A stretch of DNA of 44,968 bases from Bacteroidota bacterium (GTDB lineage Bacteria; Bacteroidota; Bacteroidia; Chitinophagales; Saprospiraceae): NCBI GenBank assembly GCA_016234735.1, contig JACRAN010000018.1, positions 1 through 44,968 on the forward strand. Reading direction: 5' to 3'. Of the stretch, positions 19,272 through 39,575 are shown one piece after another. Every line of letters starts with the position of its first letter. The first letter of the stretch is position 1. The position numbers were made by a program, and so were the translations under genes. The notes under the pieces were generated by a model, which had not been told where the DNA came from, made no database searches, and saw only the letters and a list, made by a program, of their open reading frames with translations.

Positions 19272-19335
19272 GGAATTGGGTATTGGGTATTGGTCAATAC
19301 CCAATACCCAATACCCAATTCCCAATACCCAATTC
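19272..19335. repeat. Inverted tandem-repeat element (GGGTATT words) between adk and obgE
   Basis: Forward words AATTGGGTATTGGGTATTGG (19274-19293) are followed by the complementary words CAATACC(C) repeated five to six times (19295-19335), giving a long hairpin. It fills nearly the whole gap between the adk stop (19268) and the obgE start (19343). Confidence 0.85.
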
Positions 19336-19342
19336 CACCCTC

Positions 19343-25732: not shown

Positions 25733-26633
25733 CTCGCCCCCACAACGGCACCGGGTACTTCCCCGCACGGGTCATTTCGACGAATGCACGTTGCACGGTT
25801 TCCTTGTCCTCCCGGTAGGTGACTCCGTACCATTTCTCGTCGTTGGGCAGCACCTTGAAGGTGGCCGTGCCGCTGTTGATGAGGTCGTTTGCGAAGCTGG
25901 AAATGTAGAATTCCGCTTTTGAATTGGCGGCGTTTTTCTCCACAAAATCATTGAAACCTTTTTGCAGCAGCTCAAAAATATGCGGGTGGAAACCCCAGAT
26001 GTTCATCGACACGAGCGAGTTGCCGTTGAGTGGTGCCTTGCCGTTTTCTGATTTGTAAAAAATGCCTGACTGCGTTTCCTCGATGCCCGTACACTCGGTG
26101 ACGGTGCGCAGCAGGTGGTTTTCGTCCATTGAGCAAACGCCTCTCGACACCGCCCCATTTTCCGAAAGCGTGTTTTTCAAAACGTAGCCCACCATGCCGT
26201 AATGTGTTGACTGGCAATCGCTTACAAGGAACTCAGCCATTTTCTGAAAGCCCGAAAACCCGTAAAAATCATCGGCGTTGATGGCCACGAACGGCTCCCT
26301 CACCACGTCCTTGGCCACCAGCACGGCATGGCCGGTTCCCCAGGGTTTCGCCCGCTCCACCTGCCCCGGCACGGCGGGCACGTAGGTGTCCGGCCCCTGA
26401 AAAGCAAACCCGATTTCCGTTTTCCCCTCCCAGCGGCTGGCGATTTTTTCCTTGAACTCCTGCTCGAAATCCCGCCGGATGACGAAGACGACCTTGCCAA
26501 AACCGGCTTTCAGTGCATCGTAAATCGAGTAGTCCATGATGGCTTCGCCTGCCTGGCCGACCTCGTCGAGTTGCTTGAGGCCACCGTAGCGGCTGCCCAT
26601 GCCTGCCGCGAGAATGAGTAACGTGGGTTTCAT
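25716..26633 (-). CDS. Sugar-nucleotidyltransferase-like protein (NTP_transferase fold)
   Basis: The 305-aa protein begins MKPTLLILAAGMGSRYGGLKQLDEVG, which has the nucleotide-binding signature LAAGxGxRxGxxKQ (residues 7-21). FVAINADDFYGF gives the metal-binding Asp pair. The fold is that of glucose-1-phosphate nucleotidyltransferases, and members activate sugar phosphates with NTPs. The subgroup lacks a clear sugar-specific motif, so the substrate is not predicted. The C-terminal residues Arg-Asn-Glu-Glu and the stop are encoded by the dispersed repeat at 25664-25732, so the original end was probably different. It stands alone, convergent with proS. Confidence 0.85.
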   Translation of the reverse strand: MKPTLLILAAGMGSRYGGLKQLDEVGQAGEAIMDYSIYDALKAGFGKVVFVIRRDFEQEFKEKIASRWEGKTEIGFAFQGPDTYVPAVPGQVERAKPWGTGHAVLVAKDVVREPFVAINADDFYGFSGFQKMAEFLVSDCQSTHYGMVGYVLKNTLSENGAVSRGVCSMDENHLLRTVTECTGIEETQSGIFYKSENGKAPLNGNSLVSMNIWGFHPHIFELLQKGFNDFVEKNAANSKAEFYISSFANDLINSGTATFKVLPNDEKWYGVTYREDKETVQRAFVEMTRAGKYPVPLWGRGRNEE

Positions 26634-26757
26634 TTTTTTACTGGAAAATTGAGTGAAACGAAATCCCGAACTGAAGGTCGGGAAGTGAAAAGTTTAAAGG
26701 AAAAAGTGAGCCTCAAAGAGGCACAAACATAGCAGTTTTTTGGCAAGACAGACACTT

Positions 26758-26790
26758 CATCATCCCTCATTCCTCACCCCTCATACCTCC
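26758..26790. repeat. Dispersed CCCTCATTCC repeat, copy 2, containing the bcp stop codon
   Basis: CATCATCCCTCATTCCTC followed by ACCCCTCATACCT; 29 of 31 bases match 20561-20591. The stop codon of the peroxiredoxin gene (26781-26783) is inside it. Confidence 0.8.
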
Positions 26791-27236
26791 AGAATCTGTT
26801 CGGCATGGCGCTTCGACTCCACCTTGTCGATGACCTTTTCGATGATGCCGTGTTCGTTGATGATGAACGTGGTGCGCAGCAGCCCGTCGTACTCCCTGCC
26901 GAACAGCACTTTCGGCCCCCAAACGCCGTAGGCATTGATGATGGCGTGGTCTTCGTCCATCAGCAGCGGGAAGGGCAGGCTGTGCTTTTTGATGAAATTT
27001 CGGTGCTTCGTGGCGCTGTCGGGGCTGACGCCGAGGAGGTGGAAGCCCTGCTTTTTCAGTACCTCGTAATTGTCCCGGAGGTTGCAGGCCTCGACGGTGC
27101 AGGTGGGCGTGTCGTCGGCAGGGTAAAAGTACAGGACGAGTTTTCTACCCTTGAAATCGGCCAGCAAAACCGGGTGGCCGTGCTCGTCTTTGCTATTGAA
27201 GTTCGGGGCTTTGTCTCCCGTTTTCAGGTGTGTCAT
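26781..27236 (-). CDS. bcp: Thioredoxin-dependent peroxiredoxin, BCP/PrxQ type
   Basis: The 151-aa protein has the PrxQ signature YPADDTPTCTVEACNLRD, with the peroxidatic Cys46 and the resolving Cys51 five residues later, as in atypical two-Cys enzymes. It reduces hydrogen and organic peroxides using thioredoxin. Length and motifs are normal for the family. The start (MTHLKTGDKAPNF) is the only ATG close to the conserved region. Its end lies in a dispersed repeat, so the last few codons may be recent. Confidence 0.95.
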   Translation of the reverse strand: MTHLKTGDKAPNFNSKDEHGHPVLLADFKGRKLVLYFYPADDTPTCTVEACNLRDNYEVLKKQGFHLLGVSPDSATKHRNFIKKHSLPFPLLMDEDHAIINAYGVWGPKVLFGREYDGLLRTTFIINEHGIIEKVIDKVESKRHAEQILEV

Positions 27237-27346
27237 GCAGTGCTGTTTTCGTTAAAAATTCTTCGCAAGAAACATGCTTTCGGGCAAATGGTTGCGATGA
27301 TTTTCATCAAAACCCGTCCACTCGGCCGGAGTTATTTTCCAAGCCA

Positions 27347-27354
27347 TATCTTTG
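27347..27354 (+). promoter_or_regulatory. Candidate -7 element (TATCTTTG) of purD, just before the 18-copy repeat
   Basis: TATCTTTG matches the Bacteroidota consensus. The start of transcription would be near 27361, exactly where the ATCGTAA array begins, so the predicted purD leader is almost wholly repeat. No TTTG is found at the ideal -33 spacing. Confidence 0.5.
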
Positions 27355-27360
27355 CCTTCA

Positions 27361-27486
27361 ATCGTAAATCGTAAATCGTAAATCGTAAATCGTAAATCGT
27401 AAATCGTAAATCGTAAATCGTAAATCGTAAATCGTAAATCGTAAATCGTAAATCGTAAATCGTAAATCGTAAATCGTAAATCGTAA
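27361..27486. repeat. Perfect tandem array: 18 copies of the heptamer ATCGTAA
   Basis: 126 bp of exact 7-bp units, with a degenerate AATCGTCA at the right end, stopping 8 bp before the purD start codon at 27495. There are no spacers, so it is not a CRISPR array. The perfection of the copies implies recent expansion. The array has no Shine-Dalgarno-like element. Confidence 0.98.
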
Positions 27487-27494
27487 AATCGTCA

Positions 27495-28766
27495 ATGAAA
27501 ATCCTCCTCCTCGGCGGCGGCGGCAGGGAACACGCCTTCGCCTGGAAAATCAGCCAGAGCCAGCACTGCTCGAAACTCTACATCGCACCCGGCAACCCCG
27601 GCACGGCCACCTGCGGCGAAAACGTGCCGCTCAACCCCGAAGACAACGCCGCCGTCCACGATTTCGTGGTGGCCAATTCCATCGAAATGGTCGTCGTTGG
27701 CCCCGAAGCACCGCTCGTGAACGGTGTCTGGAACCACCTCCGCAGGTCACGCCGCACCGCGCACGTGCCCGTCATCGGCCCCTCGGCGCAGGGGGCGAAG
27801 CTCGAAGGCAGCAAGGCGTACGCCAAGCGGTTCATGCAGGAATTCGGCATCCCGACGGCGGACTACCGGGAGTTTTTTGCCAGCAACACCGCCTCGGCGC
27901 TCCGTTTTTTGCAAAAAAAAGCCACGCTGCCCATCGTGCTGAAGGCCGACGGATTGGCTGCCGGCAAGGGCGTGGTCATCTGCCAGGAGCGGGACGAGGC
28001 TGTGGCGGAAATGGCGGAAATGCTCGGCGGAAAGTTCGGCGGTGCGAGCCGCAAGGTGGTCGTCGAGGAGTTCCTCAGCGGCATCGAATTCAGCATTTTT
28101 GTGCTCACCGACGGCGAATCTTACAAAATCCTGCCCGTGGCGAAGGACTACAAGCGCATCGGCGAAGGAGACACCGGCCCGAACACGGGCGGCATGGGTG
28201 CCGTGTCGCCGCCGCCCTTCGTGGATGTGGCGATGATGAAAAAAGTGGAGCAGGAAATTATCAAGCCCACCATCGCAGGGCTGAAAAAACGGGGCATCGA
28301 GTACCAGGGCTTTATTTTTTTGGGGCTGATAAAAGTTGGCGACGACCCGTTCGTCATCGAATACAACTGCCGCATGGGCGACCCGGAGACGGAGGCCGTG
28401 CTGCCCCGCCTGAAAAACGACCTCGTGGAATTGTTCACCGCCGTGCGCGACCGCCGACTTTCGGAGGTCAAAATCGAGGAGGACGAGCGGGCGGCCACCA
28501 CCATCATCCTCGCCTCCGGCGGCTACCCCGGCGACTTCCACAAGGGCAAGCCCATCACCGGGCTTGACAAAACTCAGGGCAGCATCGTCTTCCATGCTGG
28601 CACAAAAACCGTTGGCAATCAATTGGTTACGAGCGGTGGGCGGGTCATGGCGGTGACTTCCTTCGGCAAAACCTTCCGGGAGGCGCTGGCGGTTTCCAAT
28701 AAAAATGCGGCGCTGATTGAGTTCGAGGGGAAGTATTTCCGGCGGGATATTGGGTTTGATTTGTGA
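27495..28766 (+). CDS. purD: Phosphoribosylamine-glycine ligase (GAR synthetase)
   Basis: The 423-aa protein has the family features: the N-terminal MKILLLGGGGREHAFAWK loop, the PGNPGTA segment, VVGPEAPLVNG, the ATP-grasp KADGLAAGKGVV loop, DYKRIGEGDTGPNTGGMGAVSP, and the metal-binding EYNCRMGDPETEAVLP. It makes glycinamide ribonucleotide from phosphoribosylamine, glycine and ATP in purine synthesis. It is complete, and its start is set by MKILLLGGGG. The unusual feature is the leader, which is the 18-copy heptamer array. No other pur gene is adjacent. Confidence 0.97.
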   Translation: MKILLLGGGGREHAFAWKISQSQHCSKLYIAPGNPGTATCGENVPLNPEDNAAVHDFVVANSIEMVVVGPEAPLVNGVWNHLRRSRRTAHVPVIGPSAQGAKLEGSKAYAKRFMQEFGIPTADYREFFASNTASALRFLQKKATLPIVLKADGLAAGKGVVICQERDEAVAEMAEMLGGKFGGASRKVVVEEFLSGIEFSIFVLTDGESYKILPVAKDYKRIGEGDTGPNTGGMGAVSPPPFVDVAMMKKVEQEIIKPTIAGLKKRGIEYQGFIFLGLIKVGDDPFVIEYNCRMGDPETEAVLPRLKNDLVELFTAVRDRRLSEVKIEEDERAATTIILASGGYPGDFHKGKPITGLDKTQGSIVFHAGTKTVGNQLVTSGGRVMAVTSFGKTFREALAVSNKNAALIEFEGKYFRRDIGFDL

Positions 28767-28795
28767 GTTTTCTAAAACTTTGTGAAGCAAAAATG

Positions 28796-28803
28796 TATTT
28801 TTG
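28796..28803 (+). promoter_or_regulatory. Candidate -7 element (TATTTTTG) of the DUF433/DUF5615 module
   Basis: Lies 16 nt before the start codon at 28819, implying a very short leader. The -33 part is not convincing. Confidence 0.35.
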
Positions 28804-28818
28804 TAAAAAATCAGAACC

Positions 28819-29049
28819 ATGCAGGAACTCATCAACCGCATCACCATTGACCCAGAAGTTTGCCACGGAAAGCCCACAGTCCGAGGCTCCCGCCTCATGG
28901 TTGCCACCGTTTTAGAATTGATGGCCAGCGATATGACCGTTGATGAAATCTTGGCCGATTATCCTGCGCTGGAAGTGGCAGATATTAAAGCTTGTTTGCA
29001 GTATGCTGCCATGCTTGCCAAGTTTCAAAGTATACCGCTTGCAGCATGA
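28819..29049 (+). CDS. DUF433 antitoxin-like protein
   Basis: The 76-aa protein reads LINRITIDPEVCHGKPTVRG then SRLMVATVLELMASDMTVDEILADYP, the diagnostic DUF433 pattern (IxxDPxxxxGKPxIxGTRI with a helix-turn-helix-like EILxxYP). In other genomes DUF433 partners with PIN-like DUF5615 toxins. Here the next gene is exactly such a protein and overlaps by four bases (ATGA), so translational coupling is likely. The expected role is binding and repressing the partner and its own promoter. Confidence 0.9.
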   Translation: MQELINRITIDPEVCHGKPTVRGSRLMVATVLELMASDMTVDEILADYPALEVADIKACLQYAAMLAKFQSIPLAA

Positions 29050-29399
29050 AATTCCTCGTTGACGAACAACTTCCGTGGGCGCTGGTCAAATGGCTGGCAA
29101 GTCAAGGGTACGATGGGATTCATGCAACGTCGCTCGGAAAAAACATTCGGATAACCGACCGGGAAATATGCAAGGAAAGTATCCAGCAACAACGGGCAGT
29201 CATCAGCAAGGATATTGATTTTTTGAACAGCTTTTTGATAAAAAAAGAACCATGGAAACTCATTTACCTCACCACTGGCAATATCTCCAACCGTGAATTG
29301 CTTTCGCTTTTACAATCCAACTTGTTTCAATTGGTTGGTTTATTTGACAAAGCAAATGTTGTCGAAATGAACCAGCACAACATTCTTGTCAGGCTTTGA
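29046..29399 (+). CDS. DUF5615 PIN-like toxin-type protein
   Basis: The 117-aa protein begins MKFLVDEQLPWALVKWLASQGYD, with the first acidic residue of a PIN-like (Mut7-C type) nuclease site. Later acidic positions are DREICKES and SKDIDFLN. The family is thought to act as the RNA-cleaving partner of DUF433 proteins; activity is inferred from the pairing. Length is normal. The start overlaps the DUF433 stop by four bases. Its own stop is overlapped by the TTG start assumed for the GHMP kinase, which suggests a longer transcript 28819-31113. Confidence 0.85.
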   Translation: MKFLVDEQLPWALVKWLASQGYDGIHATSLGKNIRITDREICKESIQQQRAVISKDIDFLNSFLIKKEPWKLIYLTTGNISNRELLSLLQSNLFQLVGLFDKANVVEMNQHNILVRL

Positions 29400-30373
29400 T
29401 TACCAGCCAAAACAACTTCCACGCCCACGGCAAACTCCTCCTCACCGCCGAATACTTCGTGCTTGATGGGGCACTGGCGCTGGCTTTGCCGGTGAAGCTG
29501 GGGCAATCACTCGATTTCGGATTTCGTCCCGATAGCTATCGGGATTCGGATTTCGGAAATGCTGGTGAACTTCACTGGCAGAGTTTCGATGAAAAAAACG
29601 AGTGCTGGTTCGAGGTAAAATTTAGCCTTGAAAATTTTGAAATCCTGCAAACCGATGACCCCGCCGTCGCCGACCGCCTGCAAAAAATCCTGCGGAAAGC
29701 CCGAAACCTGAACCCCGGCTTTCAACAATCAACAATCAACAATCAACAATCAACAATCAACAGCCACCTCGATTTCCCCCGCCTCTGGGGCCTCGGCACC
29801 AGTTCCACGCTGGTTTACCTCGTGGCGCAGTGGGCGGAGGTGGATGCTTTCGAGTTGCAGTTCCGCACCTTCGGCGGGTCGGGTTACGACATCGCCTGTG
29901 CCGGGGCCGATGGGCCGATTCTGTATTCTTTGAAAAATGGAAAACCGCATGTGGAGGCTTGCGACTTCCATCCGACCTTCGCTAACTGCCTGTATTTCAT
30001 TTACTTAGGCCAAAAACAGGACAGCCGGGAAGGCATCAAGAATTACAGATTGCGGATTGCGGATTGCGGATTGGGGGCGCAGGAAGCAGTTTCCAAAATT
30101 TCGGACTTGACGAGGCAGTTTCTCGCTTCACAAACGCTGGCCGAATTCGACGACCTCTTCCGGCAGCACGAGGCGCTCGTCGCTGAAACCACCGGCCTGC
30201 CGAGGGCCAAGTCGCTGTTTTTCAGCGATTTCTGGGGCGAAATCAAGTCGCTGGGAGCCTGGGGCGGCGACTTCGTGCTGGCCACGAGCGACCGCCCCGA
30301 AGAAGAAACCCGACAGTATTTCAACGAAAAAGGCTACGAGGTGTTCTTGCCCTACGAAGCGTTAATCCTTTGA
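29396..30373 (+). CDS. GYDIA-family GHMP kinase, with three repeat insertions in frame
   Basis: The 325-aa protein shows GHMP kinase features: an N-terminal HAHGKLLLTAEYFVLDGALALALP, the phosphate-binding LWGLGTSSTLVYLVAQ (Pro-x-x-x-Gly-x-x-Ser motif variant), and GGSGYDIACAGADGPILY, which names the family. GHMP kinases phosphorylate small alcohols such as mevalonate or homoserine; the natural substrate of this Bacteroidota subfamily is not known to me. The start is a TTG at 29396 overlapping the previous stop; no ATG precedes the conserved start. Three repeat tracts interrupt it at 29513-29556, 29721-29763 and 30047-30074, each adding a foreign-looking peptide (RPDSYRDSD, QQSTINNQQSTIN, NYRLRIADCGLG) without breaking the frame. 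Confidence 0.88.
   Translation: MITSQNNFHAHGKLLLTAEYFVLDGALALALPVKLGQSLDFGFRPDSYRDSDFGNAGELHWQSFDEKNECWFEVKFSLENFEILQTDDPAVADRLQKILRKARNLNPGFQQSTINNQQSTINSHLDFPRLWGLGTSSTLVYLVAQWAEVDAFELQFRTFGGSGYDIACAGADGPILYSLKNGKPHVEACDFHPTFANCLYFIYLGQKQDSREGIKNYRLRIADCGLGAQEAVSKISDLTRQFLASQTLAEFDDLFRQHEALVAETTGLPRAKSLFFSDFWGEIKSLGAWGGDFVLATSDRPEEETRQYFNEKGYEVFLPYEALIL
29513..29556. repeat. Palindrome CCCGATAGCTATCGGG flanked by GATTTCG words, in frame
   Basis: The perfect 16-bp palindrome is at 29528-29543, with T/A flanks extending it to 18 bp. GATTTCGGATTTCG (29513-29526) and TTCGGATTTCGG (29545-29556) flank it. A near-identical palindrome, CCCGATAGCAATCGGG, is at 2884-2899. Confidence 0.8.
29721..29763. 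repeat. Short tandem repeat, word AATCAAC, in frame in the GHMP kinase
   Basis: Five copies of a 7-bp word, read as Gln/Ser/Thr/Ile/Asn repeats. A 7-bp unit shifts the reading frame by one base per copy, so the copy number present just happens to keep the gene open. Confidence 0.85.
30047..30074. repeat. Short tandem repeat, word GGATTGC, in frame in the GHMP kinase
   Basis: Nearly four copies of GGATTGC (AGATTGCGGATTGCGGATTG...), translated as LRIADCGLG. Confidence 0.8.
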
Positions 30374-37439: not shown

Positions 37440-37625
37440 GGAAGGAACGGAGGATTGAAGGATTGAAGGATTGAAGGAAAGAAGGATTGAAGGAACGAGG
37501 ATGGAAGGATTGAAGGAAAGAGTTGGAAATCAACTCATCCGTGTGCAACCCTTCCATCCTCGTTCCTTCAATCCTCCGTTCCTTCAATCCTTCAATCCTT
37601 CCCCACCTTCAATCCCTCAATCCTT
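37440..37625. repeat. Large inverted tandem-repeat element (GGATTGAA / GGAACGA words)
   Basis: Left arm: repeated GGATTGAA, GGAACGAGG and GGATGGAAGG words (37440-37515). Right arm: the complementary words CCTTCAATCC, CCTCGTTCC and CCTTCCATCC (37550-37625). The centre contains a nested hairpin GAGTTG/CAACTC (37519-37535). The symmetry is so strong that open frames on both strands start with the same peptide MKERRIEGTRMEGL. It ends 7 bp before the next start codon. Confidence 0.9.
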
Positions 37626-37631
37626 CAAAAC

Positions 37632-39575
37632 ATGGGCGAAGCAAAAGTATCGGTAGCGAAAGACCAGAGCGAACTCCAGAATTTCATGCGCAACCTGCTG
37701 AACGACATGCAGGCATTGGAGTACATGCTCGACAACCACTGGTTTGAGGCCGGCATCACCCGCATCGGGGCGGAGCAGGAAATGTGCATCGTGGACAATA
37801 AAACGTACAAGCCGGCCAAAATCAACCTGAAAGTCATTGAGGCAATGAAAGATTGTGAATGGCTTGACACAGAACTGGCGCAGTTCAACCTGGAAACGAA
37901 CATGACCCCGGTAGAGTTTACGGGGAATTGCTTCCGGCAAATGGAGGACGAAAACCTCGTGTACCTTGCCAAAATCAAGAAAACCCTCAAGGCAATGGGG
38001 GCGAACATCGCCCTGACCGGCATCCTGCCCACGCTGCGCAAAACCGACCTCGACCTCGAAAACCTGACCGAAAAACCCCGCTACATGGGCCTGATGAAGT
38101 CACTGAAAAACCACCTCATCGGCAATGCGTTCGAGCTGAACCTCAACGGCATCGACGAACTGCACGTGAAGCACGATTCGCCGCTGCTCGAAGCCTGCAA
38201 CACCAGTTTTCAGGTGCATTTGCAGGTAGAACCCAAAGATTTCGTCTGCCTCTACAACATCGCCCAGATGCTCACCGGGCCGACCATCGCCATCGCCGCC
38301 AACTCGCCGCTGGTTTTTGGCAAACGCCTTTGGCACGAGTCGAGGATTGCGCTCTTCCAGCAATCGCTCGACACCCGAACCTCGCAAGACCACCTGCGGG
38401 AGCGCAGCCCCCGTGTGAACTTCGGCACCGGCTGGCTGCAAGGCTCCATCCTCGAAATTTACAAGGAAGACATCGCCCGCTTCCGGGTGCTGATGACCTC
38501 TGACGAGGTCGAAAATTCCTTGGAACAAATCCTCAAGAAAAAAACGCCGAAGCTCAAGGCTTTGCAGGTTCACAACTCCACCGTCTATCGCTGGAACAGG
38601 CCCTGCTACGGCATCAGCGCCAACGGCCAGCCGCACCTGCGCATCGAGGCCAGGGTGCTGCCCGCCGGGCCGACCGTCGTGGACGAGATGGCCAACGCTG
38701 CCTTCTGGCTCGGTGCCCTGGTCGGCATGAAAAAACACTGCCACGACGTGACGACCCTGCTCTCCTGGGAAGACGTTCGGGACAATTTCATGAAAGCTGC
38801 CCGGTTTGGCATGGACACCAAGTTCAACTGGTTCAACGACCGGAAGCTGCCCGCTGCCGAGTTGTTGCTCAAGGAGTTGTTGCCGCTGGCAAAGGAAGGC
38901 CTCCTGGAAAAGAAGGTTGATACTTCCGACATCGACCGCTACCTCGGCATCATCCGGGAGCGGACAGAGGCACACATGACCGGTGCCCGCTGGCAACTCC
39001 GGGCCTTCACGAAGTTGAAACAATCCATCACCACCGACGAAGCCACTGCCGTACTCACGGCCTGCATCGTCAAAAACCAGGAAAAAGAAATGCCTGTACA
39101 TACCTGGGAACTGCCCGACCCCGGCGAACTGGAAGAGTACGTGCCTTCCCGCCTGCGGGTCGAGGAGTTCATGACCACCGACCTCATCACCGTCCAGAAG
39201 GAAGACCTTATCGATTTCGTGACAGAATTGATGAACTGGCGCAAAATCCGCTACATGCCCGTCGAGGATGCCAAGGGCAAATTGGTGGGCCTCATCACTT
39301 CCCGGCTGTTGCTTCGGCACTACTCCCGGAACCAACAGTTGAACGGCAAAGTGCTCAATGCCACCGTTCAGGACATCATGATCACCAAACCCCTGACGGC
39401 TACGACGAAAACCACCATCATGGAGGCGCTGAGAGTGATGCGGGAGAACCAGGTGGGCTGCCTCCCCGTCGTTCACGAAAAGGAAAACGAACTGGTGGGT
39501 ATCATCACCGAAATGGACTTCCTGCGGGTGTCGTCACGCCTGATGGAAAGGCTGGAACTGGCGAATGCGAAGTGA
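37632..39575 (+). CDS. GCS2-type glutamate-cysteine ligase-like protein fused to two CBS domains
   Basis: The 647-aa protein begins with a GCS2 ATP-dependent ligase domain (about 30-480): ITRIGAEQEMCIVD, AQFNLETNMTPVEFTG, LNGIDELHVKHDSPLLEACNTSFQVHLQV, and RIEARVLPAGPTVVDEMANAAFWLG. Two CBS domains follow (about 510-640): EFMTTDLITVQKEDLIDFVTEL...GLITSRLLLRHY, and DIMITKPLTATTKTTIMEALRVMRENQVGCLPVV. GCS2 enzymes join an amino acid to glutamate gamma-carboxylate; CBS pairs usually sense adenosine nucleotides, so allosteric control by energy state is likely but inferred. I cannot tell whether the product is gamma-glutamylcysteine. The ATG at 37632 starts 7 bp after the repeat element. Confidence 0.9.
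   Translation: MGEAKVSVAKDQSELQNFMRNLLNDMQALEYMLDNHWFEAGITRIGAEQEMCIVDNKTYKPAKINLKVIEAMKDCEWLDTELAQFNLETNMTPVEFTGNCFRQMEDENLVYLAKIKKTLKAMGANIALTGILPTLRKTDLDLENLTEKPRYMGLMKSLKNHLIGNAFELNLNGIDELHVKHDSPLLEACNTSFQVHLQVEPKDFVCLYNIAQMLTGPTIAIAANSPLVFGKRLWHESRIALFQQSLDTRTSQDHLRERSPRVNFGTGWLQGSILEIYKEDIARFRVLMTSDEVENSLEQILKKKTPKLKALQVHNSTVYRWNRPCYGISANGQPHLRIEARVLPAGPTVVDEMANAAFWLGALVGMKKHCHDVTTLLSWEDVRDNFMKAARFGMDTKFNWFNDRKLPAAELLLKELLPLAKEGLLEKKVDTSDIDRYLGIIRERTEAHMTGARWQLRAFTKLKQSITTDEATAVLTACIVKNQEKEMPVHTWELPDPGELEEYVPSRLRVEEFMTTDLITVQKEDLIDFVTELMNWRKIRYMPVEDAKGKLVGLITSRLLLRHYSRNQQLNGKVLNATVQDIMITKPLTATTKTTIMEALRVMRENQVGCLPVVHEKENELVGIITEMDFLRVSSRLMERLELANAK

Follow-up and report, generated by a model that had tools for sequence, protein, structure and literature searches.

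An 18-copy ATCGTAA array in the predicted purD leader of a Saprospiraceae bacterium as a probable expansion, specific to its lineage, of a heptamer common between genes

Heptamer repeat arrays between genes have been described in several groups of bacteria. The GGGAATC / GGGGA(C/T)T repeats of Xanthomonas and Nostoc are intergenic, dispersed and in many cases arranged as inverted pairs; the arrays occupy the same spacers in related species at different lengths, and no gene-class bias and no regulatory role were found for these repeats (PMC4692102). The TAACTGA direct repeats of Beggiatoaceae, Cyanobacteria and some Bacteroidetes are likewise intergenic, often lie just before a start codon, hold stops in the forward frames and run to as many as 43 copies in some members of the last two groups (PMC4679880). 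The hmw1A and hmw2A promoters of Haemophilus influenzae carry 13-38 heptamer copies upstream of a surface adhesin gene, for which both length variation and an effect on expression have been shown (PMC2651432, PMC2424069).

Our analysis concerns a 44,968 nt stretch of DNA (the window; GCA_016234735.1, contig JACRAN010000018.1) from a Bacteroidota bacterium of the family Saprospiraceae, in which 18 exact copies of ATCGTAA precede purD. The systems of Xanthomonas, Beggiatoaceae and Haemophilus are close precedents for this array. Its genome shares with Xanthomonas and Nostoc the dispersed intergenic arrays, the inverted pairs, the length differences between related species and the lack of gene-class bias, and the polarity of the pairs resembles that of GGGAATC; the present unit, however, does not form G-quadruplexes and varies between loci, and the phylum is a different one (PMC4692102). 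The likeness to TAACTGA lies in unit length, in the place before a start codon, in long arrays and in the forward stops, but the unit is ATCGTAA and not that of MacGregor (2015), copies adjoin stop codons more often than starts, and many of the arrays form inverted pairs. Like the hmw heptamers the array lies upstream of its gene; the demonstrated length variation and expression effect are those of the adhesin system.

Table 1. Features of the purD upstream region; gene calls come from a simple script, so that start positions of neighbouring genes are approximate.
Feature	Coordinates	Strand	Basis
Divergent thioredoxin-dependent thiol peroxidase (bcp/PrxQ type)	26781..27236	-	NF006960 169.9 bits (cut-off 140); PF00578
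Element ATGGTTGCGATGATTTTCATCAAAA between the divergent genes	27288..27312	.	Upstream-region alignment; conserved in six genus members
TATCTTTG, predicted purD -7 box, Bacteroidota type	27347..27354	+	Sequence; TA..TTTG box in nine genus orthologues
(ATCGTAA)18, perfect array	27361..27486	+	Exact period-7 tract 27360-27487 (18.3 copies)
AATCGTCA (8 bases), diverged last unit adjoining start codon	27487..27494	+	Sequence; orthologue comparison
purD, phosphoribosylamine-glycine ligase, 423 aa	27495..28766	+	TIGR00877 476.6 bits (cut-off 288); Pfam GARS N, A and C domains

The array begins six bases beyond TATCTTTG, which has the form of the -7 box in Bacteroidota promoters, and its copy number of 18, read directly in the sequence, is that of the assembly consensus. 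An earlier note on this DNA had described 18 perfect copies behind a -7 box and 8 bp before the start codon of purD, and both this reading and the gene assignment hold (Table 1). Since no clear TTTG -33 element was seen upstream of TATCTTTG at the usual distance, the promoter call rests on the conserved -7 box; the transcription start and leader of purD are predictions. The ATGGTTGCGATGATTTTCATCAAAA element is probably a promoter or operator, of either divergent gene. Other candidates for the leader were rejected: the folding prediction gave no more structure than shuffled sequences (z -0.09), which argues against a strongly folded leader, a riboswitch or other known RNA found no Rfam match up to E=1 within 26600-29000, and an upstream ORF in the array is precluded by a repeated unit that contains no ATG, GTG or TTG.

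The purD leaders of 12 genomes of the genus, window included, were compared. A TA..TTTG box lies near the purD start in ten of them (the window and nine others), so that the array sits, as the earlier note had placed it, in a predicted leader behind a box conserved in the genus. From box to ATG the window has 140 nt and the nine orthologues, whose leaders are low in G (3-15%), have 27-41 nt; orthologue leaders carry 0-4 ATCGTAA-like copies. About four such units are found in genome G010, mixed AATCGTA/AATCCAA units in G007 and G001, four copies of CAATCAC in G008 and ACTCAAA units in G004; G005 and G003 show no clear array. Judged from the nine orthologues, the leader has retained its position, box and composition while its unit has been replaced repeatedly, and expansion to a long array is confined to the window's lineage. 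These distances support the earlier claim of a recent expansion, with which the perfection of the copies also fits.

The heptamer is by no means peculiar to purD. At least two consecutive copies of ATCGTAA occur at about 50 sites in the genome, beside unrelated genes and more often at stop codons than at starts, and a purD-specific element was therefore rejected. We classified 51 such instances with a simple gene caller, taking the flanking genes as these calls gave them. Twenty lay at most 30 nt from a stop codon, that of the facing gene, and 7 preceded a start by no more than 30 nt; a further 10 fell inside predicted genes and the remaining 14 in other places. As the forward array has stops in all frames, some of the in-gene cases must reflect wrong gene calls. 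The bias extends to the period itself. Among 52 arrays of about three or more exact copies in a 445-kb sample (mildly biased, as it was taken from contigs with an ATCGTAA dimer), 40 have period 7, six period 8 and four period 6, with almost none at other periods; composition-matched shuffles of the sample yielded no such array at any period from 2 to 20. Of 139 period-7/8 arrays obtained with a looser definition, 90 are intergenic, although only some 20% of the sample is. Spacers are self-similar at lags 7, 14 and 21, most strongly after stop codons, whereas coding sequence shows the codon period only. The purD array is the longest case seen of this genome-wide tendency.

Heptamer arrays were also observed elsewhere. 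Locus L174 (G000 C16, 532-14813) holds many of them (ATTTCGG, CAATTCC, CAATCGT) within predicted coding sequence, and in the window a perfect TCAACAA array of 5.9 copies (29722-29762) lies inside a predicted ORF at 29396-30373 that has no Pfam match. A repeated element of about 150 bp (L124, L136, L140, L141), with ends like GAGGCTGTCTCA, contains ATCGTAA units and resembles a small non-autonomous mobile element. Four-copy ATCGTAA arrays occur in 7 of 150 genomes sampled from the family; a phylum sample of 247 genomes has them in 6, all six in the window's class and four of them outside its family. The period-7/8 tendency is wider than the genus, since Prevotella and Chitinophaga relatives carry spacer arrays of these periods with other units (L052-L092, L047).

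A chance origin of the array is excluded, because the shuffles gave no arrays and the reversed ATCGTAA pattern has no match in the genome. The next longest ATCGTAA array in the genome has four copies; given so extreme a gap, 18 versus at most four, length at purD may also have been selected for.

We consider it likely that the array is a recent, lineage-specific slippage expansion of this common intergenic heptamer in a tolerant, unstructured predicted purD leader. Replication slippage would have expanded the heptamer within a short, G-poor 5' leader, downstream of the predicted transcription start and upstream of the ATG, and the array would be transcribed as part of that leader. Bacteroidetes mRNAs do without Shine-Dalgarno sequences, and initiation in F. 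johnsoniae is tuned by structure and by bases near the start such as A-3 (PMC6847099). As initiation of this kind would need mainly an unstructured leader and suitable start-proximal bases, the array may be largely tolerated: the last eight bases before the purD start fall outside the perfect repeat.

The earlier note had further proposed phase variation or tuning of purD, which is not supported by our data. The array lies past the promoter box and outside the reading frame, so a change in copy number has no effect on frame and on/off switching by frameshift is excluded; the same heptamers stand beside unrelated genes, more of them at stop codons, in a genome prone to period-7 arrays. Any effect on purD would be graded, through leader length, mRNA stability or initiation. 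Graded tuning by copy number is possible, by analogy with hmwA. Copy-number differences at this leader were seen between species. A stronger form of the idea, a contingency locus in which copy number changes often and tunes purD much as the 7-bp repeats of H. influenzae tune hmwA, could draw on the perfect copies, the lineage-specific length and the finding that more repeats generally mean less hmwA transcript (PMC2424069, PMC2651432). We nevertheless hold it to be unlikely, as purD is a housekeeping and not a surface gene, ATCGTAA repeats adjoin many unrelated genes and stop codons, and purD orthologues carry so few copies.

Inverted pairs point to another conceivable origin. Under that looser array definition, an inverted match (10 nt or longer, no more than 150 nt away) accompanies 60 of the 90 intergenic period-7/8 arrays, versus a mean of 4.9 when contexts were swapped between loci. 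Although the unit varies by locus (CTCATAA, CAATACC, AATCCTTC, ATTTCGG and others), the arms of a pair match each other. In the first arm of periodic inverted repeats G outnumbers C 23 times and C outnumbers G once, also between convergent genes. A dedicated process might build the spacers of these Bacteroidota from heptamer or octamer arrays private to each locus and set as inverted pairs with a constant polarity, a G/T-rich arm after the stop and an A/C-rich arm before the start, the arms changing together, and the purD array would then be a one-armed runaway product; we regard this as quite improbable. No inverted partner lies within 150 bp of the purD array, which was therefore rejected as half of a palindrome. 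A search for literature specifically on Saprospiraceae spacers returned nothing relevant. Inverted pairs were also noted at single loci. In the window, a AGGATTGA octamer array and an inverted CAATCCTT array (37441-37628) fill the spacer before an ORF at 37632, and a CAATACC array with an inverted partner (19272-19336) lies in the spacer before an ORF at about 19342. Two species with similar flanks share the same heptamer palindrome at differing copy numbers (L145, about 1215-1285; L213, about 1400-1480).

Less probable still is that the heptamers are sites of an RNA- or DNA-binding regulator, multimerised at the purD leader, as MacGregor proposed for TAACTGA. The frequent place of TAACTGA just before start codons (PMC4679880) and the recurrence of ATCGTAA across several genera of its family and in further families of the class would suit such sites, but the unit differs between loci and between purD orthologues, copies are more often beside stop codons, and no candidate protein was found. 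The least probable alternative is that assembly has partly distorted the copy number, with a real array of which 18 is not the true or sole length: two contig ends (L122 and L131; G000 C72 and C161) overlap by exactly 141 bp, which suggests assembly at k=141 and would make 128 bp about the longest array that could be spanned and 18 a consensus count, and in two relatives, G028 and G010, ATCGTAA arrays lie at or near contig ends, so that lengths there are lower bounds, but the purD array is spanned within its contig with unique flanks and independent assemblies have similar arrays.

A slippage expansion in a tolerant leader would mean that conspicuous repeats in front of a metabolic gene do not have to act as a switch. 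The tendency towards period-7 arrays, known from Xanthomonas and cyanobacteria, is still unexplained. The purD leaders of the genus, with 0 to 18 copies and several units, form a natural series for studying the tolerance of leader length and sequence in Bacteroidota.
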